The notes under the pieces were generated by a model that was given only the letters and a program-made list of their open reading frames with translations, searched no databases and had not been told where the DNA came from. From Azospirillum lipoferum 4B (GTDB taxonomy: Bacteria > Pseudomonadota > Alphaproteobacteria > Azospirillales > Azospirillaceae): a DNA stretch of 64,000 nucleotides. Made by a program: the position numbers and the translations under genes. Positions 48,552 to 61,155 of this stretch are shown here, one piece after another. Numbering within the stretch: position 1 is the stretch's first letter; each line of letters begins with the position of its first letter. The stretch lies in assembly GCF_000283655.1 (NCBI RefSeq), contig NC_016622.1, positions 2,120,501-2,184,500 of the forward strand. Reading direction: 5' to 3'.

Positions 48552-48886
48552 AATTAACATGAAATCGCCTTGCCACCAATGGCTAAGCCCGTTGTGCAGC
48601 GCAACAGAATCTATGCAAAAGGTCTTGCCTTTCGGCGAGTAGTCACGGACACTTTCCACCGGCTGGCAGCGTGCGAACAGGCCGCGGCCAAGCCCGGTCC
48701 GGCGAGCGGGCATCAAGAATCGGGCATCGAGAAATCAGGGCACGAACAGCGCGGCCGGACCAACGGCCGCCGCGGTTTTCCGGAGGGACGGATCAAGGCG
48801 CTGACGCCAGGACCCGCTGCTTTGAGATGGCCGGATCATTCCATCCGGCGCGTGGCCGGGTCCCAAGCCGAGCGAGGGGATCGATC
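48552..48886. other. Upstream region of nifA, no regulatory element recognised
   Basis: About 330 bases. The nifA frame is open upstream to 48671, but the conserved protein starts at 48887. No sigma-54 -24/-12 element, TGT-N10-ACA site or FNR/FixK-like box was seen. nifA is probably transcribed from a vegetative-type promoter that could not be located. Confidence 0.4.
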
Positions 48887-50785
48887 ATGCCGAGTGCTGC
48901 CCAGTCCGCGTCATCTTCCAGCCTCGAGCTGCTGACGATCTATGAGGTCAGCAAGATCCTCGGGTCGTCGCTGGATTTGGAACAGACCCTGCGCGAAGTG
49001 CTGCGCGCCTTGTCCTACCAGCTGCAGATGCACCGTGGCCGCGTCTACCTCCAGGGGGAGGACAATGCGCTGCGTCTGGTCGCGGCACTGGGGCTGCCGA
49101 AGGATTCGACGGCGCAGGAGATCGACTACAGCCAGGGCGAAGGCATCAGCGGCCGCATCCTGAAGACCGGCATGCCGGCCGTCGTCCCCAATCTGGCCGA
49201 GGAGCCGCTGTTCAACAACCGCTCCGGCGGGCGCGACGACCTGGACGAACAGGTGGCGTCGCTGGTCGGGGTCCCGATCAAGGCGGCCGGCACCGTCGTC
49301 GGCGTGCTGACCATCGACCGCATTTCCGACGACGGCCCCAGCGGCCATTTCGGCTCCGACGTCCGTTTCCTGACCATGGTCGCCAACCTGATCGGCCAGA
49401 CCGTGCGCCTGCACCGGACGGTGGCGGAGGAGCGGCGCTTCATGATGCGCGAGACCTTCCGCGTCCAGAAGGAACTGCGGCCGGTGGTGGCGCCGGTCAA
49501 CGACGTGGTCTGCACCAGCCCCAACATGGTCGACGTGCTGGCCCAGGTGCACCGGGTGGCGCCCTTCAAGTCCACCGTGCTGATCCGCGGCGAGAGCGGC
49601 ACCGGCAAGGAGCTGATCGCGCGGGCCATCCACAACCTGTCGCCGCGCAAGGATGCCCCCTTCATCCGCGTCAACTGCGCCGCCCTGCCGGAATCGCTGC
49701 TGGAGTCGGAACTGTTCGGCCACGAGAAGGGATCCTTCACCGGCGCCCAGAAGGACCACAAGGGCCGGTTCGAACTGGCCTCGGGCGGCACGCTGTTCCT
49801 GGACGAGATCGGCGACATCTCCTCCAACTTCCAGGCCAAGCTGCTGCGCGTGCTGCAGGAGCAGGAGTTCGAGCGGGTCGGCGGGTCGAAGACGATCAAG
49901 ACCGACGTCCGCCTGATCTGCGCCACCAACCTGAACCTGGAGGAGGCGGTCGGCCACGGCAAGTTCCGCGCCGATCTGTATTTCCGCATCAATGTGGTGA
50001 CGATCCACCTGCCGCCGCTGCGCGAACGGCGCGGCGACATCGCCATGCTGGCCAAGCATTTCGTCGCCAAATTCGCCCGCGACAATGGTCTGGCCCTGGA
50101 CATCGACCGTGACGCGCTGGAGGTTCTGAACCGCTGCACCTGGCCCGGCAACGTGCGCGAGCTGGAGAACTGCATCGAGCGCGCGGCGACCCAATGCCGC
50201 AACGGCACCATTCGCGTGCCCGACCTGTCCTGCAGCATGAATCTCTGCAATTCGTCGGTGCTGTTCCAGTACCGCACCATGGGGGCGGCGGTCGGCGGGC
50301 TGGCCCCGTCGATGAGCGGCACCCCGATAAACCCGTCAGGCGCCAACCCGGCTTTGGGACGCCCGCAGCAGCCGCCCATCGCCGGCATGCCTCCTGCGGT
50401 GCCGGCACCGGCACCGGCGAACGGGGCGGCGAATGGGGTGTCGAACGGAACACAATGGCCGGCTTGCGCGTCGGGCTGTTCCGCCGGTCCGGCGCCGGTC
50501 TGCGGCGCGTCAAAGCCGCTGCCGCCGACCGCCATCGCTCCCCTGCCCGCTCCCCAGCCGGCCGCCGCCGCCCCCGCGGTTCCCTCCGCCCCGGCGCCGC
50601 AGCCCGCCGACACCCCCGACCTGCCGCTGGACGAGCCGGAGTCGGGTCCCCTGCGCGACCGTCTGGTGTGGGCGATGGAACGCACCGGCTGGGTGCAGGC
50701 CAAGGCCGCCCGCCTGCTGGGCATGACCACCCGCCAAGTCAGCTACGCGCTCCGCAAATACAACATCGAAATCAAGAGGTTCTAA
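48887..50785 (+). CDS. nifA: NifA, sigma-54-dependent activator of nitrogen fixation genes
   Basis: NifA activates nif promoters with sigma-54 RNA polymerase. The 632-residue product has an N-terminal GAF domain (about residues 10-170, [20 protein letters not shown]), a central AAA+ domain (about 205-440) with Walker A GESGTGKE, the sigma-54 contact loop GSFTGA (usually GAFTGA) and LFLDEIGD, and a C-terminal Fis-type HTH ([20 protein letters not shown]). The exact C-x11-C-x19-C-x4-C motif (C417, C429, C449, C454) marks an oxygen-sensitive NifA. A Pro/Ala linker (470-590) holds additional cysteines. The start at 48887 has GAGGGG upstream and matches the known NifA N-terminus. Confidence 0.97.
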
Positions 50786-50860: not shown

Positions 50861-51817
50861 ATGCTACCCTGCCGCGCCTTCGGTTCGATGGCATCTTTCC
50901 GATCGAACGGATCTCCGGTCTTGCCCTCGCTTGAGAAGCCCCTCGCCCTGATGTTCGTCGACATCGCGGACAGCACGATGTTGTACGAGCGCATCGGCAA
51001 CGCCACCGCCGCGGCTCTGACGCAGCGGGTGCTGGCCCACCTGCGCCAGCTGGTCGAGGAACACAAGGGCGGGGTGATCAAGAGCCTGGGCGATGGGCTG
51101 CTGGCCGCCTTCCCGGCCTGCGACGACAGCATCCGCGCCGCCTGCGCCATGATCGACAGTCAGGACCGCTTTGGCCTGCGGCTGCGCGTCGGCATCCATC
51201 ACGGCGCGGTGATCGAAGGGGTGGGCGACCTGTACGGCGACGCCTGCAACGTCGCCGCGCGGGTGCAGCAGATCGCGCGCCAGGGCGAAATCCTGGTCAC
51301 CCAGGCATTGGTGGACGGCCTGTCGCCCAACCTGCGCGAGCGGACCAAACCGCTGAGCAACGTTGCCATGAAGGGCAAGACCGCACCGGTCCGCGTCCAT
51401 CGGGTCCGCAGCGCCGACGACGCCGACGACGCCGTGGAAAGCACCACGCTCGGCTTCTCGATGGTGACGGAGGCCGGCGATGCCATGGTGACGCTGCATC
51501 TGTCCTACCGCGGACAGGACATCACGATGAGCCGCGCGCTGCCCCGCGTCACCATCGGGCGGGAGGACAGCAGCGGCCTGCGCATCGCCTCGCGCCAGAC
51601 CTCGCGCCAGCATGCGGTGATCGACTTCACCCGCGAGAGCTTCCTGCTGACCGACCATTCCACCAACGGCACCTTCATCCGCAGCGGCGGGTCGCCGCCG
51701 CTGGTGCTGCGCCGCGATTCGACCAAGCTGGTCGGCAGCGGCCTGATCGGCTTCGGGGCGGAGGCGCTGGACGAGAGCCAGGACCATGTCGTCGCCTTCC
51801 GCGGCGAACTGGCCTGA
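50861..51817 (+). CDS. Class III nucleotide cyclase with C-terminal FHA domain, between nifA and nifB
   Basis: A 318-residue protein. Residues 28-190 form a class III cyclase domain with both metal-binding Asp (LMFVDIADS, D34; KSLGDGLLAAF, D78), the base-selecting Lys (K74), and LYGDACNVAARVQQIA (D127, N130, R134), so cAMP synthesis is expected. Residues about 220-310 form an FHA phosphothreonine-binding domain with TIGRED, TSRQHAVI and STNGTF. The start is uncertain (50861 or 50888). It lies 75 bases after nifA and ends just before the NifA sites of nifB, so it is probably co-transcribed with nifA. Its role is unknown. Confidence 0.85.
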   Translation: MLPCRAFGSMASFRSNGSPVLPSLEKPLALMFVDIADSTMLYERIGNATAAALTQRVLAHLRQLVEEHKGGVIKSLGDGLLAAFPACDDSIRAACAMIDSQDRFGLRLRVGIHHGAVIEGVGDLYGDACNVAARVQQIARQGEILVTQALVDGLSPNLRERTKPLSNVAMKGKTAPVRVHRVRSADDADDAVESTTLGFSMVTEAGDAMVTLHLSYRGQDITMSRALPRVTIGREDSSGLRIASRQTSRQHAVIDFTRESFLLTDHSTNGTFIRSGGSPPLVLRRDSTKLVGSGLIGFGAEALDESQDHVVAFRGELA

Positions 51818-51823
51818 CCGCTT

Positions 51824-51839
51824 TGTCGGCACCCCGACA
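51824..51839 (+). promoter_or_regulatory. NifA upstream activator sequence 1
   Basis: TGT at 51824-51826 and ACA at 51837-51839 separated by exactly ten bases, the consensus NifA binding site. It starts six bases after the stop of the cyclase gene and about 110 bases upstream of the -24 element. Confidence 0.85.
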
Positions 51840-51862: not shown

Positions 51863-51878
51863 TGTCGCAATGACGACA
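51863..51878 (+). promoter_or_regulatory. NifA upstream activator sequence 2
   Basis: A second TGT-N10-ACA at 51863-51878. Its centre is 39 bases from that of the first site, roughly four helical turns, which would place two NifA oligomers on nearly the same DNA face. Confidence 0.85.
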
Positions 51879-51935: not shown

Positions 51936-51951
51936 TGGCCCCGAACTTGCT
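51936..51951 (+). promoter_or_regulatory. Sigma-54 promoter of the nifB operon
   Basis: TGGCCC-CGAAC-TTGCT: the -24 GG (51937-51938) and -12 GC (51949-51950) have the correct spacing, with one change from the TGGCAC-N5-TTGCA consensus. With the two NifA sites upstream this is a complete nif promoter driving nifB and probably the genes to 59858. Confidence 0.9.
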
Positions 51952-52004
51952 TTTCTCCACTTCATCCAACGGTGTCGTCCGGCACGGCAGGGAAGGAGTG
52001 GATG

Positions 52005-53567
52005 ATGGGCAACGTGGTTTCGCTCGACAGCATCTTCGGGCTGGGAGAACTGGCTCCGCCCTTGACGATGCCGGCAGCGCCAGAGGCGGCGTCCGGCTGT
52101 TCGTCGTCGTCCTGCGGCTCATCCGATGGTCCGGCCGACATGGACCCGGCGGTGTGGGAGAAGGTGAAGAACCACCCCTGCTATTCGGAAGAGGCGCATC
52201 ACTATTTCGCCCGCATGCATGTCGCGGTCGCCCCGGCCTGCAACATCCAGTGCAATTACTGCAACCGCAAATACGATTGCTCGAACGAGAGCCGGCCGGG
52301 CGTGGTCTCCGAAAAGCTGACCCCCGATCAGGCGCTCAAGAAGATCCTCGCCGTCGCCCAGGAAATCCCGCAGTTGTCGGTGATCGGCATCGCCGGCCCC
52401 GGCGACAGTCTGGCGGCCAACGGCAAGAACACCTTCGCCACCTTCGAGATGCTGCAGAAGAAGGCGCCGGACCTGAAGCTGTGCCTGTCCACCAACGGCC
52501 TGGCCCTGCCCGAGCATGTGGACACCATCGCGCAATACAACATCGACCACGTCACCATCACCATCAACATGGTCGATCCGGAGATCGGCGCGCAGATCTA
52601 CCCGTGGATCTTCTACAAGCACAAGCGCTGGACCGGGCTCGACGCCGCGAAAATTCTCCATGAGCAGCAGATGCTGGGGCTGGAGATGCTGACCTCGCGC
52701 GGCATCCTGGTGAAGGTGAACTCCGTCATGATCCCGGGGATCAACGACGAGCACCTGCTGGAGGTGAACAAGGCGGTGAAGAGCCGCGGCGCCTTCCTGC
52801 ACAACATCATGCCGCTGATCTCCGACCCCGCCCACGGGACGTATTTCGGTCTGAACGGCCAGCGCGGCCCCACCGCGCAGGAGCTGAAGGTGGTGCAGGA
52901 CGCCTGCGAGGGCGGGGCCAAGCTGATGCGCCATTGCCGCCAGTGCCGCGCCGATGCGGTCGGCCTGCTGGGCGAGGATCGCGGCGAGGAGTTCACCGCC
53001 GACAAGATCGAGGCGATGGGCGCCATCGACTATGACGACGAGGCCCGCCGCAGCTACCGCGAGCATGTCGAGGCCGAACGCGCTGGCCGCCATGCCTCTA
53101 AGGCGGCGGCGCAGGCCGATGTCCGCGACAGCGTCGGCACCACGGCCGATCCGATCCTGATCGCCGTCGCCACCAAGGGCGGCGAGCGCATCAACGAGCA
53201 TTTCGGCCACGCCAAGGAATTCCAGATCTACGAGGTCGGCCCCAACGGCGCAAAGTTCGTCGGCCATCGCCGCGTCGACCAGTATTGCGAAGGCGGTTCC
53301 GGCGACGTCGACACGCTGGACGGCGTGCTGGCCGCCATCAACGACTGCACCGCGGTGTTCGTCGCCAAGATCGGCGGCTGCCCGTCCAAGTCGCTGGCCC
53401 AGGCCGGGATCGAGCCGGTCGACCGCTTCGCCTTCGACTACATCGAGGAATCGGCGCTGGCCTATTTCAAGGACTATGCCGAGCGGCTCGGCCAGGGCGT
53501 CGTCCAGTCCCGCGCCGGCCAGGATGCGGTGATCCGCACCGGGGCGCTGACCGCGCGGCGCGCCTGA
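52005..53567 (+). CDS. nifB: NifB, radical SAM FeMo-cofactor biosynthesis protein
   Basis: NifB makes NifB-co, the [8Fe-9S-C] precursor of FeMo-co. The 520-residue product has the radical SAM motif C79-x3-C83-x2-C86 (CNIQCNYC) followed by [16 protein letters not shown], the [13 protein letters not shown]-contact segment, the two-cysteine [17 protein letters not shown] region, and a C-terminal NifX-like domain (about 390-500, [21 protein letters not shown]). An N-terminal Ser/Cys-rich extension ([10 protein letters not shown]) is present. AAGGAG lies six bases before the second of two tandem ATGs (52005), which is the preferred start. Confidence 0.98.
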
Positions 53568-53621: not shown

Positions 53622-53813
53622 ATGGCCTACAAGATCAAGTCCGCCGAATGCACCGTCTGCGGCGCCTGCGAGGCCGAGTGCCCGAACATCGCCATCAGCC
53701 TGAAGAAGGGCACCTACGTCATCGACCCGGCCAAATGCACCGAATGCCAGGGCCAGTTCGACAGCCCGCAATGCGCCGCCGTCTGCCCGGCCGACTGCTG
53801 CGTCCCGGCGTGA
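53622..53813 (+). CDS. fdxN: FdxN-type 2[4Fe-4S] ferredoxin
   Basis: A 63-residue ferredoxin. Cluster motifs: [12 protein letters not shown] (CxxCxxCxxxCP) and [13 protein letters not shown] followed by AAVCP (CxxCx8CxxxCP), the arrangement typical of nifB-linked ferredoxins. It probably supplies electrons or clusters to NifB. GGAGAG precedes the ATG. It lies 54 bases after nifB and is followed by a palindromic repeat block. Confidence 0.96.
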
Positions 53814-53992: not shown

Positions 53993-54508
53993 ATGCTGGA
54001 CGAGGTGGATGAGGACTGGCTCGCCCGCCGCTACTACGGCGGGGATCTTCCGCCCGAGGCGGAACGCTGCCTGCATCTGGCCGCCGCCAGCTATGCCGAC
54101 AGCGAGGCGGCGCTCGCCCATCTCGCCCGCGCGGCGGAGGTTGCCCCCGGTCATCGCCTCGTCGATCTCGGCCATTACAAGTTCCACTTCTACAAGGCGA
54201 ACCTCGACCGGGCGCTGGTCTATGGCGAGCGCATGATCGGCCACGCCATGGCCGCGCTCGGCGTCAACCATGCCGACTGGCGCGCCGTCACCCCGGCCAC
54301 CGCCGATTTTCGCGGGCTGGAGCCGGCTCCCCGCCTGTTCCTGTTCGCCCTGGTGGCCATCGGCTACCTGCTGCTGCGCACCGGTCGGCTCGAAGCCGGG
54401 CGGGAGGCGTTGGGCAAGGTCCGCGACCTCGACCCCGACGACCGCTTCGGCGCATCCCGCCTGATCGCCATTGCCGACCAGCATGAGCGTGAGGAGGCCG
54501 GCGCATGA
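53993..54508 (+). CDS. nif-cluster helical repeat protein (TPR-like)
   Basis: A 171-residue soluble helical protein. Two TPR-like stretches are visible: AALAHLARAAEVAPGHRLVDLG and LLLRTGRLEAGREALGKVRD followed by LDPDDRFG. The His/Tyr-rich YKFHFYKANLDRALVYGERM in the middle is distinctive. Proteins of this type occur next to nifB and the LRV ferredoxin in Azospirillum-like nif clusters, but no function is known. AGGAG is upstream of the ATG. The stop overlaps the next gene (ATGA). Confidence 0.75.
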   Translation: MLDEVDEDWLARRYYGGDLPPEAERCLHLAAASYADSEAALAHLARAAEVAPGHRLVDLGHYKFHFYKANLDRALVYGERMIGHAMAALGVNHADWRAVTPATADFRGLEPAPRLFLFALVAIGYLLLRTGRLEAGREALGKVRDLDPDDRFGASRLIAIADQHEREEAGA

Positions 54509-55317
54509 GCGACGACATCCTCGAATCCCTGGATTGGCGCGGCGAGCCGGTGGACTGCACCGCCTGCACCCACAAGGAGCGCCGGCTCGACCCGGATACC
54601 GCAGCCCTTCCCGCTGGCGGCAAGCTGACCGGACACTGCCTGCTGTCGAAGGCCTGCGTGCAGGACCGCTACGCCAAGCGCATCCAGCGTTTCTTCGAGT
54701 GGAATCCGGAGCTGTCCGCCGGCCATCTCAACCATCCCTATTTCGAAGTGCGGGCGAACGCCGCGCGCTTCGCGCCGATCTTCCAGCTTCCCCGGCTGAT
54801 GAACGACCCGGACGAGACGGTGCGCTCCGTCCTGGCCCGCCGGCTGCCGCGCCGCCTGCTGCTGAAGCTGCGCGACGACCCCGACTGCGAGGTGCGGATC
54901 GCCGTCGCCACCCGGCTGGAGGATGCCGACCTCGCCCCGCTGATGCGCGATCCCGACTGTTCGGTGCGGCTGCGCGTGGTGCGGCGGATCCCCGACGGCA
55001 TGCTGCCGGCGATGATGCATGACGAGGACCCGGAGGTGCGGGTGGAGGTCGCCCGCCGCCTTTCCATGGATTGGCTGCCCAGCCTCGCCTGGGACGACAG
55101 CCCGCGGGTGCGGTTGGTGGTGGCGCAGCGGCTGCCGGCGTCGAAGCTGCATGTGCTGCTGCCGGATGCCGACTGGATGGTCCGCCTCGCCGTCGCCGGT
55201 CGGATCGATACCGGGCAACTCGGCCCGCTGCTCGACGACCCGGAGGAGGAGGTGCGCGCCATCGCCCGCCAACGCGCCGCCGGCCTCGCCATCGCCAACG
55301 ATCTCCCGCCCCTCTAG
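54505..55317 (+). CDS. Leucine-rich-repeat-variant (LRV) iron-sulfur protein
   Basis: A 270-residue protein like the LRV protein described from Azotobacter vinelandii, where an N-terminal [4Fe-4S] cluster caps a right-handed superhelix of repeats. The N-terminus has four Cys (DCTACTHKER, GHCLLSKAC) for the cluster. From about residue 75 to 265 there are eight or so repeats of about 24 residues containing DPDxxVRxxxAxRL (for example DPDETVRSVLARRL, DPDCEVRIAVATRL, DPEVRVEVARRL). It is co-translated with the previous gene (ATGA). The function in nitrogen fixation is unknown; protein docking to a redox partner is plausible. Confidence 0.88.
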   Translation: MSDDILESLDWRGEPVDCTACTHKERRLDPDTAALPAGGKLTGHCLLSKACVQDRYAKRIQRFFEWNPELSAGHLNHPYFEVRANAARFAPIFQLPRLMNDPDETVRSVLARRLPRRLLLKLRDDPDCEVRIAVATRLEDADLAPLMRDPDCSVRLRVVRRIPDGMLPAMMHDEDPEVRVEVARRLSMDWLPSLAWDDSPRVRLVVAQRLPASKLHVLLPDADWMVRLAVAGRIDTGQLGPLLDDPEEEVRAIARQRAAGLAIANDLPPL

Positions 55318-55346: not shown

Positions 55347-55673
55347 ATGACCGACATCGAAGCCGCCGCCCCATACCGCCGCGAGCGCGCCCGCAGCGCC
55401 GAGGATGCCAACGAGCTGGTCGGCCCGCCGGTGCTGGAACAGGGCTTCAAGGTCAAGGCGCTGCGCGACGTGCGCAACGACGGGACCTATCCCGGCCGGC
55501 CGGTCGGCGACTTCCTGATCCGCGAAGGCGATGTCGGCTACGTCATCTCCATCGGGACCTATCTGCAGATGTACTACATCTATGCCGTTGATTTTTATGA
55601 AAAACGGGTCGTCGTCGGCATGCGCGCGCGCGAGCTGGAGGTGATCGACGCCCACTGCAACGACCCGCAATGA
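55347..55673 (+). CDS. nifZ: NifZ, copy 1
   Basis: NifZ helps mature the P-clusters of the MoFe protein. The 108-residue product has the NifZ core QGFKVKALRDVRNDGTYPGR, PVGDFLIREGDVGYVISIGT and YLQMYYIYAVDFYEKRVVVGMR. The ATG at 55347 lies 30 bases after the LRV stop; the frame open to 55071 is a shadow. A second, divergent NifZ follows. Confidence 0.9.
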   Translation: MTDIEAAAPYRRERARSAEDANELVGPPVLEQGFKVKALRDVRNDGTYPGRPVGDFLIREGDVGYVISIGTYLQMYYIYAVDFYEKRVVVGMRARELEVIDAHCNDPQ

Positions 55674-55705
55674 ACACTGGTCCACACCCGATAAGGAGCC
55701 TCGCG

Positions 55706-56011
55706 ATGTCCGACGTCGAAGCCGCCGCCAAGCCCGGTTTCATCCCGCCGCGCGAACCGCTGTACGACTGGGGCCTGCGGGTCACGGTGCAGGAGGACCT
55801 GTTCAACGACGGCAGCCACCCCCAGGTGCCGGACGGCGCGCTGCTGGCGCCGAAGGGCACGCCGGGCGTGATCGTCCGCGTCGGCCGTACCGAGGAAGGC
55901 AGCCTGCCGGTCTATCTGGTGGAGTTCCCCGGCGGCACTGTCGTCGGCTGCCTGGAGGAGGAAATCGCCCCGGCCGACGGGTCGCGGCGCGGCGTGCCCG
56001 GCGTGATGTGA
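55706..56011 (+). CDS. nifZ: NifZ, copy 2
   Basis: A 101-residue NifZ paralogue: YDWGLRVTVQEDLFNDGSHP, then GALLAPKGTPGVIVRVG and LPVYLVEFPGGTVVGCLEEE. It differs considerably from copy 1, so the two are old paralogues or act on different targets. The ATG at 55706 has AAGGAG seven bases upstream; the frame opens at 55670. It is followed by the cysteine desulfurase after 14 bases. Confidence 0.85.
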   Translation: MSDVEAAAKPGFIPPREPLYDWGLRVTVQEDLFNDGSHPQVPDGALLAPKGTPGVIVRVGRTEEGSLPVYLVEFPGGTVVGCLEEEIAPADGSRRGVPGVM

Positions 56012-56025
56012 TGGGGGGCGATGCG

Positions 56026-57177
56026 ATGACCATCTACCTCGACAACAACGCCACCACCGCCCTGGCTGCGGAAGTGCGCGACGCAATGATGCCGCACCTG
56101 TTCGGCGAATTCGCCAACCCGTCCAGCCCCCATTCCGCCGGCATGGCCGCCCGCCGCGCGGTCAGCGAGGCCAAGGCCCAGGTCGCCGCCTTGATCGGCG
56201 CCAAGCCGGCCGATCTGGTGATGACCGGCAGCGCCACCGAGGCGACGCACGCCGCCATCCTCGGCGCGCTCCGCGTCATCGAGGAGACCGACCACCGCCG
56301 CGACCACATCGTCACCACCGCGGTGGAGCACCCGGCGACGCTGGCATTGTTCGGCGACCTGCGCCAGCGCGGCTGGCGCGTCACCATCCTGCCGGTGAAC
56401 CGCGACGGCCTGCCCTCGCTGGTCGATCTCGCCGCCGTGGTGACGGAGGCGACGGCGCTGGTCTCCATGATGTGGGCCAACAACGAGACCGGCGTGCTGA
56501 TGCCGGTGGAAGGTGCGTCCGCCATCGCCCATGCCCATGGCGCGCTGTTCCACAGCGACGCGGTGCAGGCGGCGGGCCGGGTGCCGGTCGATTGCGGCAT
56601 CGCCGATTACCTGACGCTGTCCGCCCACAAGATGCACGGGCCGAAGGGTGTCGGCGCGCTTTATGTCCGGAAGGGCGTCCCCTTCCACGCGCTGATCCAC
56701 GGCCATCAGGAGCGCCGCCGCAGGGGCGGCACGGAGAATGTGCCGGGTATCGTCGGCTTCGGCGCCGCCGCGTCGCTGGCGTCGCTCTGGCTGGACGAGG
56801 CCGACCTGATCGCCTTCCTGCGCGACCGGCTGGAACAGGGCATCCTCGCCCGCTGGCCCGGCGCGGTGGTGAACGGCGCCGGCGCCGCCCGGCTGCCCAA
56901 CACCAGCAACATCCGCTTCGCCGACGGCCGTGGCCATCCGCTGGATGCGGAGGAGTTGCTGATGCGGCTCGACCGCGCCGACATCGCCGTGTCGATGGGC
57001 GCCGCCTGCTCCTCCGGCGGCAACGAGCCGAGCCATGTGCTGACCGCCATGGGACTGAGCGGCGAACAGGCCGCCGCCAGCCTGCGCTTTTCGCTGAGCC
57101 GCTACACCACCGCGGCGGAGGTGGACGCCGTCCTGTCGGAATTGCCGGCCCTGCATGCCCGGCTGGTCGCCGCTTGA
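56026..57177 (+). CDS. nifS: NifS-type cysteine desulfurase
   Basis: A PLP-dependent enzyme that supplies sulfur for nitrogenase clusters. The 383-residue product has TIYLDNNATT, TGSATEATHAAI, the stacking VEHPATL His, the FHSDAVQ Asp, the PLP-Lys motif SAHKMHGPKGVGALY, RRGGTENVPGIVGFG and the active-site Cys loop GAACSSGG. All catalytic residues are present. The ATG at 56026 follows a GGGG stretch; the frame begins at 56008. SufS/IscS-like use is possible, but the nif context favours NifS. Confidence 0.93.
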   Translation: MTIYLDNNATTALAAEVRDAMMPHLFGEFANPSSPHSAGMAARRAVSEAKAQVAALIGAKPADLVMTGSATEATHAAILGALRVIEETDHRRDHIVTTAVEHPATLALFGDLRQRGWRVTILPVNRDGLPSLVDLAAVVTEATALVSMMWANNETGVLMPVEGASAIAHAHGALFHSDAVQAAGRVPVDCGIADYLTLSAHKMHGPKGVGALYVRKGVPFHALIHGHQERRRRGGTENVPGIVGFGAAASLASLWLDEADLIAFLRDRLEQGILARWPGAVVNGAGAARLPNTSNIRFADGRGHPLDAEELLMRLDRADIAVSMGAACSSGGNEPSHVLTAMGLSGEQAAASLRFSLSRYTTAAEVDAVLSELPALHARLVAA

Positions 57178-57217: not shown

Positions 57218-57427
57218 ATGAAGGTGATGATCCGCAAGGCGTCCGAGCAATACACGATCTACGTCGCCAAGAAGGACCTGGAGGAACCCATCGTCGAGAT
57301 GGAGAAGCCGGACCTGTGGGGCGGCTGGATCAAGGTCGCCAACGGCTGGACGCTCGACCTGCCGGAGATGCCGGCGGACACCCGCCTGCCGATCACCGTA
57401 GACGCCAAGAAACGCGGAACGGAGTGA
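57218..57427 (+). CDS. nifT: NifT/FixU family protein
   Basis: A 69-residue protein starting MKVMIRKASEQYTIYVAKKD, then LEEPIVEMEKPDLWGGWIKV and ANGWTLDLPEMP, the NifT signature. The function is unknown. CTGGAG lies before the ATG at 57218; a GTG at 57209 and another at 57215 are less likely starts. It lies 40 bases after nifS. Confidence 0.9.
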   Translation: MKVMIRKASEQYTIYVAKKDLEEPIVEMEKPDLWGGWIKVANGWTLDLPEMPADTRLPITVDAKKRGTE

Positions 57428-57432
57428 CGCCC

Positions 57433-57717
57433 ATGGCCCTGTCTCCCGAGCGCATCGACAGCATCGCCACGCTTGCCGGCCGGCTGTTCGCCGGTGGCGG
57501 CAAACTCGACGCCGTGGTCCGCGGCGTGCGCGAGGCCAACCCGGACCTGAAGACCGTCACCGGCGCCATGGCCGCGGTGATGGCCGAGGATCCCTTCCGG
57601 GAGGAGGCGGGCTTCGACCTGCATCTGGTGGACGGCAACAACCACTGCTGGCTCATCACCGACAAGCCGGAGCTTGCCACCGGCGTCGTGATCGCCCAAC
57701 GGGACGAGGACGAGTGA
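57433..57717 (+). CDS. nif-associated hypothetical protein (94 aa)
   Basis: A 94-residue soluble protein: MALSPERIDSIATLAGRLFA, then a helical stretch and MAEDPFREEAGFDLHLVDGN followed by NHCWLITDKPELATGVVIAQ. Similar small proteins follow nifT in several diazotroph clusters (DUF6129-like, from memory). The function is unknown. It is tightly linked: five bases after nifT, and its stop abuts the next ATG. Confidence 0.75.
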   Translation: MALSPERIDSIATLAGRLFAGGGKLDAVVRGVREANPDLKTVTGAMAAVMAEDPFREEAGFDLHLVDGNNHCWLITDKPELATGVVIAQRDEDE

Positions 57718-58947
57718 ATGAGCGATGCCGCCGCGGTTCTGCACGAGCCTTCCCCCGCCGATGACGACCCCACCGATATTGGTGAAGTGGACGACTACAT
57801 CCCGCTGACCGACCCCGACATCTCGGGCGCCGAGGTCGAGATGCTCGGCCGCCTGCTGTCCTCCGGGGCCTTGAGCGATGGGCGGATGGTGCGGGCGTTC
57901 GAGGACGCCTTCGCCGCCTATGTCGGCCGCGACCATGCGGTTGCGGTATCGAGCGGCACCATGGCCACGCTGCTGATGCTGAAGGGCTATGGCATCGGCG
58001 AGGGCGACGAGGTGCTGTGCAGCCCCTTCGGCTGGCATCAGGTGCAGCATGCGGTGGCGCTGTCCGGGGCCACGCCGGTGCTGGTCGACATCGACTATTG
58101 GCAGCACACCATCAACCCGGAAAAGGCAGCGGCCCTGGTCACGGAGAAGACCAAGGCGATCCTGGCCGCCAACGTCAACGGCCACCCTGCCCATTGGGAC
58201 GAGCTGCGCGCCCTGGCCGATGCCAAGGGCCTTCTGCTGCTGGAGGATTCGAGCGAGGCCATCGGCTCCACATACAAGGGCCAGATGGTCGGCACCTTCG
58301 GCGACGCTGCGGTCTTCGATTTTTCCGAACCCGGCATCCTGCTGGCCGGCGAGGGCGGCATGATCGTCACCGACGACCGCGATCTCGCCCACCGGCTGCG
58401 CTACATGCGCCAGCGCGAGACCGAGCACCGCAACACCGTGGTCATCACCCGCACCCTGCCTTGGCAGGCGGGGATGAGCGACCTGAATGCCGCGCTGGCC
58501 CTGGTGCAGTTGAAGCGCCTGCCGGAGATCCTGACCCGCCGCAATCTGGTCATCGCCTATTACGACGCGGCGATGGCGAGCTTCGAGGGGATCAAGCCGC
58601 CCTATCGTGGGCCGGGGGCCGAGGTGGTCAACCCGATGGTCTATTGCGTCCATCTCGGCACCCGCTTCACCGCGTCCGGGCGCCGGTCGATCATCGAGGA
58701 TCTGGACACCCACGACATCGACGCCAGCGACTTCGGCCAGCCGCTGCACACCCAGCAATACTACATCGAAGCGCTGGGCGAGGATCGGGCCGGCCGCGGC
58801 GCCTGCCCGGTCTGCACCAAGACGGCCGACCGCGTGCTCGCCCTGCCGCTGCACCGCAAGATCACCCGCGATCAGGTCGCCTTCATCGTGGAAACGCTGA
58901 AGGACGCCAGCGTCAACACCGGCGCCGGCGCCGCGATCTATCTGTGA
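57718..58947 (+). CDS. DegT/DnrJ/StrS-fold protein lacking the PLP lysine, in the nif operon
   Basis: A 409-residue protein with the aminotransferase fold of the DegT/AHBA family. It has SSGTMATLLMLKGYGIGEGDEVLCSPF-type phosphate-binding region, LLLLEDSSEAIGSTYKGQMVG (the pyridine-contact Asp) and AGEGGMIVTDD. Where family members carry the Schiff-base Lys (FSF-x3-K-x-hhhxGEGG), the sequence is FDFSEPGILLAGEGG (residues 200-214), with Gly206 at the Lys position and no other Lys nearby. It cannot be a normal aminotransferase. A CPVC pair lies near residue 363. It abuts the previous gene and is followed by the SIR2-like gene after 23 bases. Confidence 0.85.
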   Translation: MSDAAAVLHEPSPADDDPTDIGEVDDYIPLTDPDISGAEVEMLGRLLSSGALSDGRMVRAFEDAFAAYVGRDHAVAVSSGTMATLLMLKGYGIGEGDEVLCSPFGWHQVQHAVALSGATPVLVDIDYWQHTINPEKAAALVTEKTKAILAANVNGHPAHWDELRALADAKGLLLLEDSSEAIGSTYKGQMVGTFGDAAVFDFSEPGILLAGEGGMIVTDDRDLAHRLRYMRQRETEHRNTVVITRTLPWQAGMSDLNAALALVQLKRLPEILTRRNLVIAYYDAAMASFEGIKPPYRGPGAEVVNPMVYCVHLGTRFTASGRRSIIEDLDTHDIDASDFGQPLHTQQYYIEALGEDRAGRGACPVCTKTADRVLALPLHRKITRDQVAFIVETLKDASVNTGAGAAIYL

Positions 58948-58970: not shown

Positions 58971-59858
58971 ATGACCGTCACCACGCTTGCAACCGATTCC
59001 GACTCCGTCACGGTTCCGGACGCCGCGGCGGCGCTGGCCGACATCGCCGCCGCGCTGGCGGCGAGGCAGGTGGTGCCCTATCTCGGCCCCGGCGCCTTCG
59101 CCCTGCTGCCGCCCGACCGGTGCCCGATCCCGCGCAATTCGGCGGAGCTGGTGCAGCGCCTGAACGCCAAGGTCGCCGCCCCCGGCCGCATCCGCTCCAA
59201 CCTGACCGCCGTCGCCCAGTTCATCGAGACGCGCAAGCACCGCAAGACGCTGGAGACCATCCTCAACGAGATCTTCCGCCAGACGGTGCCGGCGACTCCG
59301 GTGCATGGCCTGCTGGCGGCGGTCCCGGCCCCGCCGCTGGTGGTCGATGTCTGGTATGACAATGTCCTGGACAGCCTGCTGAGCGCCGCGGCCGACCGGA
59401 CCTGGGGCCAGATCCAGGGGGTGTCGCACCCGCAGTCGACCGGCGAATGGGTGCGCTACTACGCCCCCGACGGCACGGAGACGACGGCGGAGGCGGCGAT
59501 CGGCTGGGACACTGTGCTCTACAAGCCGTCGGGTGCGGTGACGCCGGCCGGCAACTATCTGATCTCCGACAGCGACTATGTCGAGATCCTGACGGAGATC
59601 GACATCCAGACGCCGATTCCCGCAGTGGTGAAGGACCGTCGCGCTGGCCGCCATTTCCTGTTCCTGGGCTGCCGCTTCGACCACGAGATCCAGCGCACCT
59701 TCGCCCGGCAGATCTCCAAGCGCTCCTCCGACAGCCATTGGGCGGTGATTCCCGGCGAGTTGTCGAAGAACGAGGCGCGCTTCCTGGCGCTGCACGGGAT
59801 CAAGCGGATCGACATGACGCTGGAGGACGCGGTGGAGGCGCTGAGAGCGGGGGTGTGA
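58971..59858 (+). CDS. SIR2-like domain protein in the nif operon, active site altered
   Basis: A 295-residue soluble protein that follows the SIR2_2 layout: VVPYLGPGAFALLP (Rossmann Gly loop, 39-42), VVDVWYDNVLDSLL (127-137; family TNYD), VLYKPSGAVTPAGNYLISDSDY (family Y-K-x-HG-S-x, about 183-202) and HFLFLGCRFDHEIQRTF (final strand and helix). The Asn and His used by active SIR2 enzymes appear as W128 and S187, so NAD hydrolysis is doubtful although binding may remain. AGAGG precedes the ATG at 58971. It is the last gene of the nif operon before a repeat block. The alignment is by eye. Confidence 0.75.
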   Translation: MTVTTLATDSDSVTVPDAAAALADIAAALAARQVVPYLGPGAFALLPPDRCPIPRNSAELVQRLNAKVAAPGRIRSNLTAVAQFIETRKHRKTLETILNEIFRQTVPATPVHGLLAAVPAPPLVVDVWYDNVLDSLLSAAADRTWGQIQGVSHPQSTGEWVRYYAPDGTETTAEAAIGWDTVLYKPSGAVTPAGNYLISDSDYVEILTEIDIQTPIPAVVKDRRAGRHFLFLGCRFDHEIQRTFARQISKRSSDSHWAVIPGELSKNEARFLALHGIKRIDMTLEDAVEALRAGV

Positions 59859-59888: not shown

Positions 59889-60017
59889 ATGCCCCCTCCC
59901 TAGCCCTCCCCCGCTAACGCGGGAGAGGGGACTGCCGTCGCTTTGGCAGTTACATTACGCGAACAAGCGTCCTACCCCCTCTCCCGCAAAGCGGGGGAGG
60001 GATGGGGAGGGGGCAAT
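59889..60017. repeat. GC-rich palindromic intergenic repeat (copy 7)
   Basis: Begins 30 bases after the SIR2-like gene. CCCTCCCTAGCCCTCCCCCGC and GCGGGGGAGGGATGGGGAGG form long outer arms (in part), enclosing GCGGGAGAGGGGACTGCCG and CCCTCTCCCGC. It shares the GGGACTGCCG core with copies 4 and 5 and marks the end of the nif operon. Confidence 0.7.
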
Positions 60018-60111
60018 AGCCAGAACACCCCTACCCCCAAAGAAGCGGCACCGCATCGCAACACACTCCCCCTCCATCCGTTACCCTGCGAAACGGATGG
60101 AGCGTGCCGGA

Positions 60112-61155
60112 ATGGCGACGAACAGCGGCCTCACCTTGTCTGCAGCAATCGCGGCCCTGCTGCTGACCGCATCGACGGCCGACGCCCAGGAAACCACCCC
60201 GCCGCCGGGCGATGCGCCCGCGGCCTCCGGCCCGGCCATCGGTTTCTGGATCGACAACGACCTGTTCGGCGGCGGGACCGACCGCTACTACTCGAACGGA
60301 TTCCAGTTCTATTACTTCTCCGGCGCGCGGCCGACCTACGGCAGCATCGACTGGCTGGCCAACCTCGTGCCCTGGATCGAGCCGGGCGGGGTGCGCCGCT
60401 ACGGTTTCGCCTTCGGCCAGAACATCTATACGCCGAGCAACCTCAAGGTCCGCAATCCGGACCCCAGCGACCGGCCCTATGCCGGCTGGCTCTATGGCCG
60501 GGTGTCGGTGCTGAACGAGGCGCCGACGGCGGTGGACCGCATCGATCTCGACCTCGGCATGGTCGGACCGTCCTCGCTGGCGGAGCAGACGCAGAAGACG
60601 GTCCACAAGATCGTCGGCGGCGCCACCTACCCGGAGGGCTGGAACTACCAACTGCGCGACGAGCCGGGCGTGGTGCTGAGCTATGAGCATGTCTGGCGCA
60701 GCGAGAAGCCGAACAGTCTGGGGCCGCTGGAATGGGATTTCAGCCCCCATGTCGCCGGCAGCCTGGGCAATGTGCTGACCTTCGCCGCGGTGGGGAGCAC
60801 GGTCCGGCTGGGCGGCAACATGCCGCCGCCGGTCGGCGCCCTGGCGACCCGCCCCACCTCCAGCATCCCCTACCAGGACTCCCCCTATTCTGAGCGGCCG
60901 GGGCGCTTTTCCTGGTACGTCTATGCCAGCGCCGAGGGGCGGGCCATCGCGCGCAACATCTTCCTGGACGGCAACAGCTTCCGGGAAAGCCGGTCCGTCG
61001 ACAAGCATCCCTTCGTCGGCAGCGTGCAGGCCGGGCTGACGCTGCGCTACGGCCGCTATGGCCTGACCTATGCCCAGACCCTGCAGACGCCGGAGTTCCG
61101 CGGGCAGAAGTCGCTGACCAATTACGGCTCGCTCCGGCTGTCGGCGCAGTTCTGA
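60112..61155 (+). CDS. LpxR-like lipid A 3'-O-deacylase, outer membrane
   Basis: A 347-residue outer-membrane beta-barrel of the LpxR family (DUF2219), which removes the 3'-acyloxyacyl group from lipid A. Signal peptide MATNSGLTLSAAIAALLLTA, then the family start GFWIDNDLFGGGTDRYYSNG (N49, D50 as catalytic/metal residues, S61) and VHKIVGGATYPEGWNYQL with the catalytic His (H165). The C-terminus ends in F, as in barrel proteins (SLRLSAQF). The start at 60112 has GGAG nine bases upstream. Confidence 0.9.
   Translation: MATNSGLTLSAAIAALLLTASTADAQETTPPPGDAPAASGPAIGFWIDNDLFGGGTDRYYSNGFQFYYFSGARPTYGSIDWLANLVPWIEPGGVRRYGFAFGQNIYTPSNLKVRNPDPSDRPYAGWLYGRVSVLNEAPTAVDRIDLDLGMVGPSSLAEQTQKTVHKIVGGATYPEGWNYQLRDEPGVVLSYEHVWRSEKPNSLGPLEWDFSPHVAGSLGNVLTFAAVGSTVRLGGNMPPPVGALATRPTSSIPYQDSPYSERPGRFSWYVYASAEGRAIARNIFLDGNSFRESRSVDKHPFVGSVQAGLTLRYGRYGLTYAQTLQTPEFRGQKSLTNYGSLRLSAQF

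Follow-up and report, generated by a model that had tools for sequence, protein, structure and literature searches.

The window, the whole stretch of 64,000 nucleotides of Azospirillum lipoferum 4B that was analysed, contained a nifB operon with all of its genes on the forward (+) strand. The operon opened with nifB (51972..53567), whose product matched TIGR01290 with 670.6 bits, over the cut-off. It was followed by genes for a 4Fe-4S ferredoxin (53622..53813), a TPR-like protein (53993..54508; weak Pfam matches, below cut-off), an LRV protein with an FeS4 domain (54505..55317), two NifZ-domain proteins (55347..55673 and 55670..56011), a NifS-like cysteine desulfurase (56008..57177; 431 bits, below the NifS cut-off of 530.75), NifT (57218..57427), a small protein of 94 aa (57433..57717), a DegT-fold protein without the PLP lysine directly downstream of it (57718..58947), and a SIR2_2-domain protein (58971..59858). 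From nifB to the SIR2_2 gene the genes were tightly packed, and the largest gap was the 179 bp between the ferredoxin gene and the TPR-like gene. Just past the operon, an LpxR-like outer membrane protein (PF09982, 320 bits) was encoded at 59998-61155.

A sigma-54-like -24/-12 site, TGGCCCCGAACTTGC, was found by pattern match at 51936..51950 (+) and represents a predicted promoter upstream of nifB. Two pattern matches to the NifA upstream activator-like sequence TGT-N10-ACA were located at 51824..51839 and 51863..51878 (both +), and this pattern matched six times in the whole window. No further sigma-54-like pattern match was found on the + strand between 51936 and 59858. We read the ORF at 48671-50785 as a putative NifA-like sigma-54 activator. 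Between this ORF and nifB, the sequence at 50861-51817 encoded a class III nucleotide cyclase domain fused to an FHA domain. A preliminary description of this DNA had placed the DegT gene in a NifA/sigma-54 operon, and this placement was supported by the patterns upstream of nifB and by linkage to nif genes at 58 of the 58 loci examined.

The DegT-fold gene was an ORF of 409 aa with zero internal stops. In a profile search its product matched PF01041 (DegT_DnrJ_EryC1) with 288 bits against a cut-off of 19.8, and the match covered residues 35-394, corresponding to positions 3-359 of the 360 in the profile, i.e. a near full-length domain. The NCBIfam models of sugar aminotransferases matched below their curated cut-offs, the best being PseC (199 bits, cut-off 423.5), and the nearest solved chains were perosamine synthetases and ArnB-type enzymes. 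The motif FDFSEPGILLAGEGG began at residue 200, so that residue 206 (codon 58333..58335, +) was Gly, and zero Lys residues were present in residues 195-216. Over the stretch of FDFSEPGILLAGEGG, the gapless phmmer alignment set the Lys of the perosamine synthetase 3bn1 (...FFGNKIITTGEGG...) opposite Gly206, and a profile of 18 nif orthologues placed the Gly206 column at the Lys of 3bn1, 8sng and ArnB 1mdo. Neither sequence nor profile alignment to these three chains placed any other Lys at the Schiff-base column. The chain 3dr4, which is near-identical to 3bn1, carried Ala at the Lys position, and we infer that it is a deposited mutant. The absence of the Schiff-base Lys, which the preliminary description had reported as Gly206 with no Lys in residues 200-214, was thus confirmed as real, and sequence and profile alignment turned up no other Lys at the PLP column.

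The residues of the cofactor site were compared in a table of 69 distinct nif-linked orthologues; the Azospirillum searches contributed 39 of these, and the remaining 30 came from elsewhere. Only identical copies were removed; the window protein (P0001) and one partial row were counted in, and 12 of the 57 Azospirillales genomes with the gene were not in the table under their own handles. At position 206 the table contained Gly in 51 rows, Ser in 8, Leu in 6, Ala in 3 and Gln in 1, and Lys in 0 of 69. With all 69 distinct orthologues lacking Lys at this column, its absence is beyond chance, and a strain-specific sequencing error was ruled out. The residue varied even inside the Azospirillum searches, where Ala was found in one row (L038). 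We read this drift as the probable sign that no particular residue is needed at 206 any more, rather than as a substitute catalytic residue.

The other cofactor contacts were partly retained and partly replaced. In the sugar aminotransferase Spr1654, Asp170 contacts N1, His173 contacts O3', Tyr84 lies on the ring, Ser194 and Thr59 contact the phosphate, and Lys199 is covalently bound, according to the part of PMC5936713 available to us. Likewise, Thr60, Asp156, Ser180, Lys185 and Asn239 are described in the available part of PMC8040287 as strictly conserved in Pcryo_0638, PglE and DesI, and this Asn239 probably maps to position 252 of the nif protein. Asp177 (codon 58246..58248, +) in the segment LEDSSEAIG, a pyridine-nitrogen contact by the role given in the part of PMC5936713 seen, was Asp in 69 of 69 orthologues, in agreement with the pyridine-contact Asp named earlier. 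Glu180 and an aromatic residue at 106 (Trp in 52 rows, Phe in 17) were also present in all 69, and position 81 was Thr in 61 and Ser in 4 more. The retention of Thr81, Asp177 and the aromatic residue 106 fits the continued binding of a ring ligand. Position 201 (codon 58318..58320, +), five residues before the Lys position and occupied by the phosphate-binding Ser in PLP enzymes, was Asp in 69 of 69. Position 252 (codon 58471..58473, +), usually Arg or Asn in PLP relatives, was mostly Gly in the nif clade (Gly 46, Arg 1, Asn 0 among the 69). Thus, of the phosphate-binding Ser/Gly segment that had been reported in the protein, the Gly80-Thr81 part was present, but the second phosphate ligand, Ser, was replaced by Asp201. 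As judged from the aligned residues, the loss of the site is wider than the preliminary description saw, and it extends from the Lys to the Ser-to-Asp change at 201 and the mostly Gly position 252.

Several residues were fixed in the nif clade and not common to the Lys-bearing pair of proteins closest to it in the tree described below: Y127, W128, N152, D201, P205, K293 and the GAGAAIY tail. W160 and E180 were fixed in the clade and were also found in this sister pair. The C-terminal tail NTGAGAAIYL (58915..58944, +) was kept in the nif clade and was absent from the four aligned bacterial relatives that carry the Lys. Conservation in the clade extended to the lysines K136 (68/69), K293 (69/69), K395 (69/69) and K368 (64/69). 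The sister pair kept the Lys even with Ala in place of Ser at 201; therefore, the loss of the Ser alone is no proof of the loss of PLP, and an apparent PLP enzyme can, to judge from this pair, lose the phosphate Ser.

His in place of the Lys is known from the DegT family, in E1 for example. For comparison, 16 DegT paralogues, some of them near copies, were chosen by hand from genomes of the genus Azospirillum. Residue 206 was Lys in 8 and His in 8 of them, all 16 had Ser at 201, and position 252 was Arg in 15 and Leu in 1. The eight His-bearing paralogues (L234-L237, L239, L240, L242 and L243) shared Trp106, Asp177 and Glu180 with the nif clade. Searched against solved chains, the His-bearing paralogue L240 matched best to 2gms, named PMP-dependent dehydrase WbdK (E 5e-113), which we take to be the enzyme also known as ColD, a PMP-dependent dehydrase; 3gr9, the entry that carries the name ColD, ranked fourth (E 2e-111). 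In the 2gms alignment, Ser and His stood at the same places as in the His-bearing paralogue. The likeness of L240 to ColD suggests that this paralogue may function in the making of a 3-deoxysugar. A ColD-type replacement by His was rejected for the nif protein, in which residue 206 is Gly, Ser, Leu, Ala or Gln, while the His-bearing paralogues and 2gms keep the Ser and the paralogues keep Arg252. By its residues, the nif group is apparently neither a PLP aminotransferase nor a ColD-type enzyme. The earlier suggestion that the protein does not carry out sugar transamination was supported by the same columns, with the Lys absent and the phosphate Ser changed to Asp in 69 of 69.

A scan of named genomes recovered 28 loci, of which 27 were titled Azospirillum and 1 Roseomonas genomospecies 6. 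Among plasmid records, the orthologue was found in Methylococcus sp. EFPC2 and in two Paraburkholderia, and a broken copy was found in Bradyrhizobium sp. BWA-3-5; a fifth plasmid record (Halobaculum, 35%) was left out as an orthologue. The three intact plasmid copies were annotated as aminotransferases. The copy on the plasmid of the peanut-nodule strain BWA-3-5 (L062, 10001-11117), which is the partial row of the residue table, was unannotated, lay in two tblastn pieces and was broken inside a nif cluster. In the order sample the gene was present in 57 of 82 Azospirillales genomes. With the best 4 or 5 candidates per genome scored, it was present in 4 of 385 genomes of a class sample and in 6 of 398 genomes of the phylum sample; another class sample scored in the same way at a looser limit gave 9 of 369, two of which were Lys-bearing and not nif-linked.

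The gene was restricted to genomes carrying NifB in both samples tested, order and phylum. In the order sample it was found in 57 of 66 genomes with NifB and in 0 of 16 without (Fisher p 5e-11, shared descent ignored). In the phylum sample, with the best 4 or 5 candidates per genome, the corresponding numbers were 6 of 43 and 0 of 355 (p 1e-6, shared descent again ignored); here two draws of 398 genomes each, one for the gene and one for NifB, were taken as one set, and their displayed handles agreed. The gene was lacking in 9 of the 66 NifB-bearing genomes of the order sample and in 37 of the 43 of the phylum sample, and nitrogen fixation as such therefore does not depend on it. The nifB regions of these genomes, 46 in all and comprising every DegT-less NifB genome of both samples, were 3.5 to 19.9 kb long, and many of them stopped at a contig end. 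They contained no ORF of the DegT family, with or without the Lys (at least 60 aa, E 1e-5, profile of alignment A4). The idea that other nif clusters hold a Lys-keeping DegT protein was accordingly rejected for these 46 regions as far as they were fetched, and the check for Lys-keeping homologues in nif clusters proposed with the preliminary description came out negative.

At all 58 nif-DegT loci examined, the neighbours were other genes of the nifB operon. nifB itself was on the fetched piece at 53 of the 58 loci, and four of the remaining five pieces ended with the contig. At the fifth (L013, Azospirillum sp. TSH64), the TPR-like gene and those after it, as far as SIR2, were together, with nifB and the ferredoxin gene off the piece, and in the matching genome G008 nifB was located about 0.6 Mb away. 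No nif gene was found at four Lys-bearing control loci. In another genome (G103, locus L205), nifB, ferredoxin, TPR-like, LRV and both nifZ genes and a partial nifS match were present without nifT, the small gene, the DegT gene and SIR2; four other sampled members of its genus carried the module. G103 is a natural loss of the operon end and is useful for physiological comparison.

The small gene was found directly before the DegT gene even at loci where NifT, NifS and SIR2 had moved. Its profile, which was built from the same DegT loci in which it was then counted, matched at 57 of 58 DegT loci and in 0 of the 46 DegT-less nifB regions (E 1e-3). The sole DegT locus without a match was L086, and matches below the threshold were seen in two DegT-less regions (L222, E 0.07; L195, E 0.11). 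A His-Cys pair was kept in all 18 rows of the small protein printed. Pfam DUF6129 gave a weak match to the Methylococcus small protein and none to the window copy, and no paper on DUF6129 was found in the open-licence literature searched. With this linkage and its position just before the DegT gene, the small protein is the best candidate partner of the DegT-fold protein. SIR2 was present in 58 of 82 genomes of the order, namely the same 57 with the DegT gene and G101. It was dropped as an obligate partner, since it was also present in 9 of the 46 DegT-less regions (G101 included) and lay elsewhere in the operon at several loci. A SIR2_2-domain protein is common in nifB operons, also in those without DegT.

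All 27 nif rows of a 73-row tree fell into one group, which had a support of 100/100 and sat on a long branch. The comparators were 42 viral and 4 Lys-bearing bacterial rows, and among these the Lys-bearing pair L096/L097 was the sister of the nif group; a nearer relative than this pair may exist, given that the comparators besides it were 42 viral and 2 other bacterial rows. Two patterns had been used to collect the viral comparators, and since one of them demanded the Lys, the number of viral rows with Lys is not an independent count. Nothing was recovered when viruses were scanned with a single Lys-bearing protein. L096 and L097 scored best against PseC, below its cut-off, no NifB match was found in their genomes, and one of the two adjoined a NeuD/PglB-type acetyltransferase and a PseB-like dehydratase. 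The simplest reading of the tree is that a nucleotide-sugar aminotransferase was recruited on one occasion and that the Lys was probably lost at the base of the clade. Residues stayed invariant among orthologues of 45-64% identity to the window protein, and dN/dS in 7 pairwise comparisons was 0.06-0.40, indicating purifying selection.

Taken together, these results point to a DegT-fold pseudoenzyme. A nucleotide-sugar aminotransferase would have been recruited a single time into the nifB operon of diazotrophic proteobacteria, where its descendant would act as an accessory in nitrogenase maturation; from sequence comparison we give this reading a probability of roughly 0.6. The usual internal aldimine would be impossible in such a protein, and the phosphate of PLP would not be held in the usual way. 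With no Schiff base and no usual hold on the phosphate, transamination would not be expected. The protein may instead be a scaffold or ligand-binding accessory factor in the maturation of the nitrogenase cofactor or of Fe-S clusters, presumably made under NifA/sigma-54 control and working together with the product of the small gene that precedes its own. That it might act at the NifB/Fe-S stage is suggested by nothing but its neighbours, nifB, ferredoxin, nifZ and nifS. A bolder version, which we put forward tentatively, is that the protein could be an unrecognised and widely shared nitrogenase-maturation factor, its B6 site rebuilt around Asp201 and the tail for a cofactor precursor or metal ligand, and that it and the small His-Cys protein could be an obligate pair, the two genes moving as a unit into nifB operons.

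Readings in which the protein is still an enzyme have to be weighed against the pseudoenzyme. PLP or PMP might be bound non-covalently, and Asp201 or Glu180 might serve as the acid/base in B6 chemistry that needs no lysine, ColD-like or otherwise. The retained ring-side residues (Asp177, residue 106 and Glu180 in every orthologue, Thr81 or Ser in nearly all) would suit such chemistry, and Trp106, Asp177 and Glu180 recur in the eight His-bearing paralogues. These paralogues, however, retain Ser201 and Arg252, and 2gms shows the same Ser and His, whereas in the nif clade Ser has become Asp, 206 drifts among five residues and 252 is unconserved; a fixed carboxylate at the phosphate site would moreover be unfavourable. 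We consider lysine-free B6 chemistry rather unlikely. An enzyme of new chemistry, with a pocket rebuilt for a non-B6 ligand such as a nucleotide, a homocitrate-like acid or a metal, would explain why N152, D201, P205 and P248 (67/69) are fixed in or near the old active-site motifs and not in PLP relatives. Such invariance may equally mark an interface or a change of fold, no analysis points to a ligand, and the Azospirillum CxxC (C363, C366) is missing from the aligned rows outside Azospirillum, on which ground a metal site at 363-366 was dropped. This possibility is doubtful too, and slightly the less probable of the two.

That a relocated Lys forms the Schiff base, so that the protein is still a PLP enzyme, seems improbable to a high degree. 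K136, K293, K368 and K395 are fixed or nearly so in the clade, unlike in the Lys-bearing sister pair, but all four are far in sequence from the strand of the cofactor lysine, perosamine synthetase has Lys at the 136 and 293 positions besides its own cofactor Lys, and the phosphate Ser is gone as well. Least probable of all is that the gene is decaying and simply travels with the operon. The broken copy in BWA-3-5 and the absence of the gene from G103 would agree with decay; the purifying selection, the residues that stay invariant at 45-64% identity and the retention of the gene in 57 of 66 NifB-bearing Azospirillales genomes speak against it, and it was rejected on dN/dS.

The aminotransferase label of the three intact plasmid copies misleads lists of nif parts meant for transfer to crops. 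If the protein is a pseudoenzyme that helps to build nitrogenase in free-living fixers, it would be a missing accessory part. By our own reasoning, its role may be tied to free-living fixation. The family would also offer a clean case of a DegT enzyme that lost its cofactor site once and was retained for another job.

In the part of PMC3899966 (2011) seen, BRADO5411 of Bradyrhizobium ORS278 is entered as a 'putative Aminotransferase, DegT/DnrJ/EryC1/StrS family' beside genes for a 2Fe-2S ferredoxin and for NifZ-domain, LRV-FeS4, TPR and SufA-like proteins. From this gene order, rather than from sequence alignment, we infer that BRADO5411 is orthologous to the nif DegT gene. According to the same part of the paper, the nif-related operon (BRADO5414, 5416, 5418 and 5424) is also found in Azorhizobium caulinodans, where an operon of this type is up-regulated in bacteroids, and is absent from B. 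japonicum USDA110, S. meliloti 1021 and M. loti; that part contains no discussion of a missing Lys in BRADO5411. In the open-licence literature, searched in part, no other paper naming the nif-linked DegT gene and no notice of its lost Lys were found.

The operon of the window can be compared with two others known from partially available papers. The Rhodobacter capsulatus nifB1-rcc03265-nifZT-rcc03262(SIR2) operon (PMC6925177) encodes NifZ, NifT and a SIR2-family protein as in the window, and this SIR2-family protein is NifA-dependent according to the available text. The Rhodovulum nif operon (PMC9412634) likewise has a SIR2-like protein, NifZ and NifT. Unlike in the window operon, no DegT gene was seen in either of them in the text available; the main text of the R. 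capsulatus paper as obtained contains neither 'aminotransferase' nor 'DegT', and that of the Rhodovulum paper lacks 'aminotransferase'.

Among DegT-family proteins, ColD and E1 resemble the nif protein in being members of the family without the Lys. The ColD-like His-bearing paralogues differ from it in having His at 206, Ser at 201 and Arg at 252, all three of which are lacking in nearly all members of the nif clade. With the branch of PseC, PglE, ArnB and perosamine synthetase (PF01041; TIGR03588), the nif protein has in common the family, Asp177, Thr81 and the aromatic residue 106. It differs from this branch in that the Schiff-base Lys is missing, Asp stands for the phosphate Ser, the Arg or Asn at 252 is gone in nearly all members, and an extra conserved C-terminal tail is present. 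The genomic setting differs as well, being a nif operon for the nif DegT protein and a sugar locus for the enzymes of the PseC, PglE, ArnB and perosamine synthetase branch.
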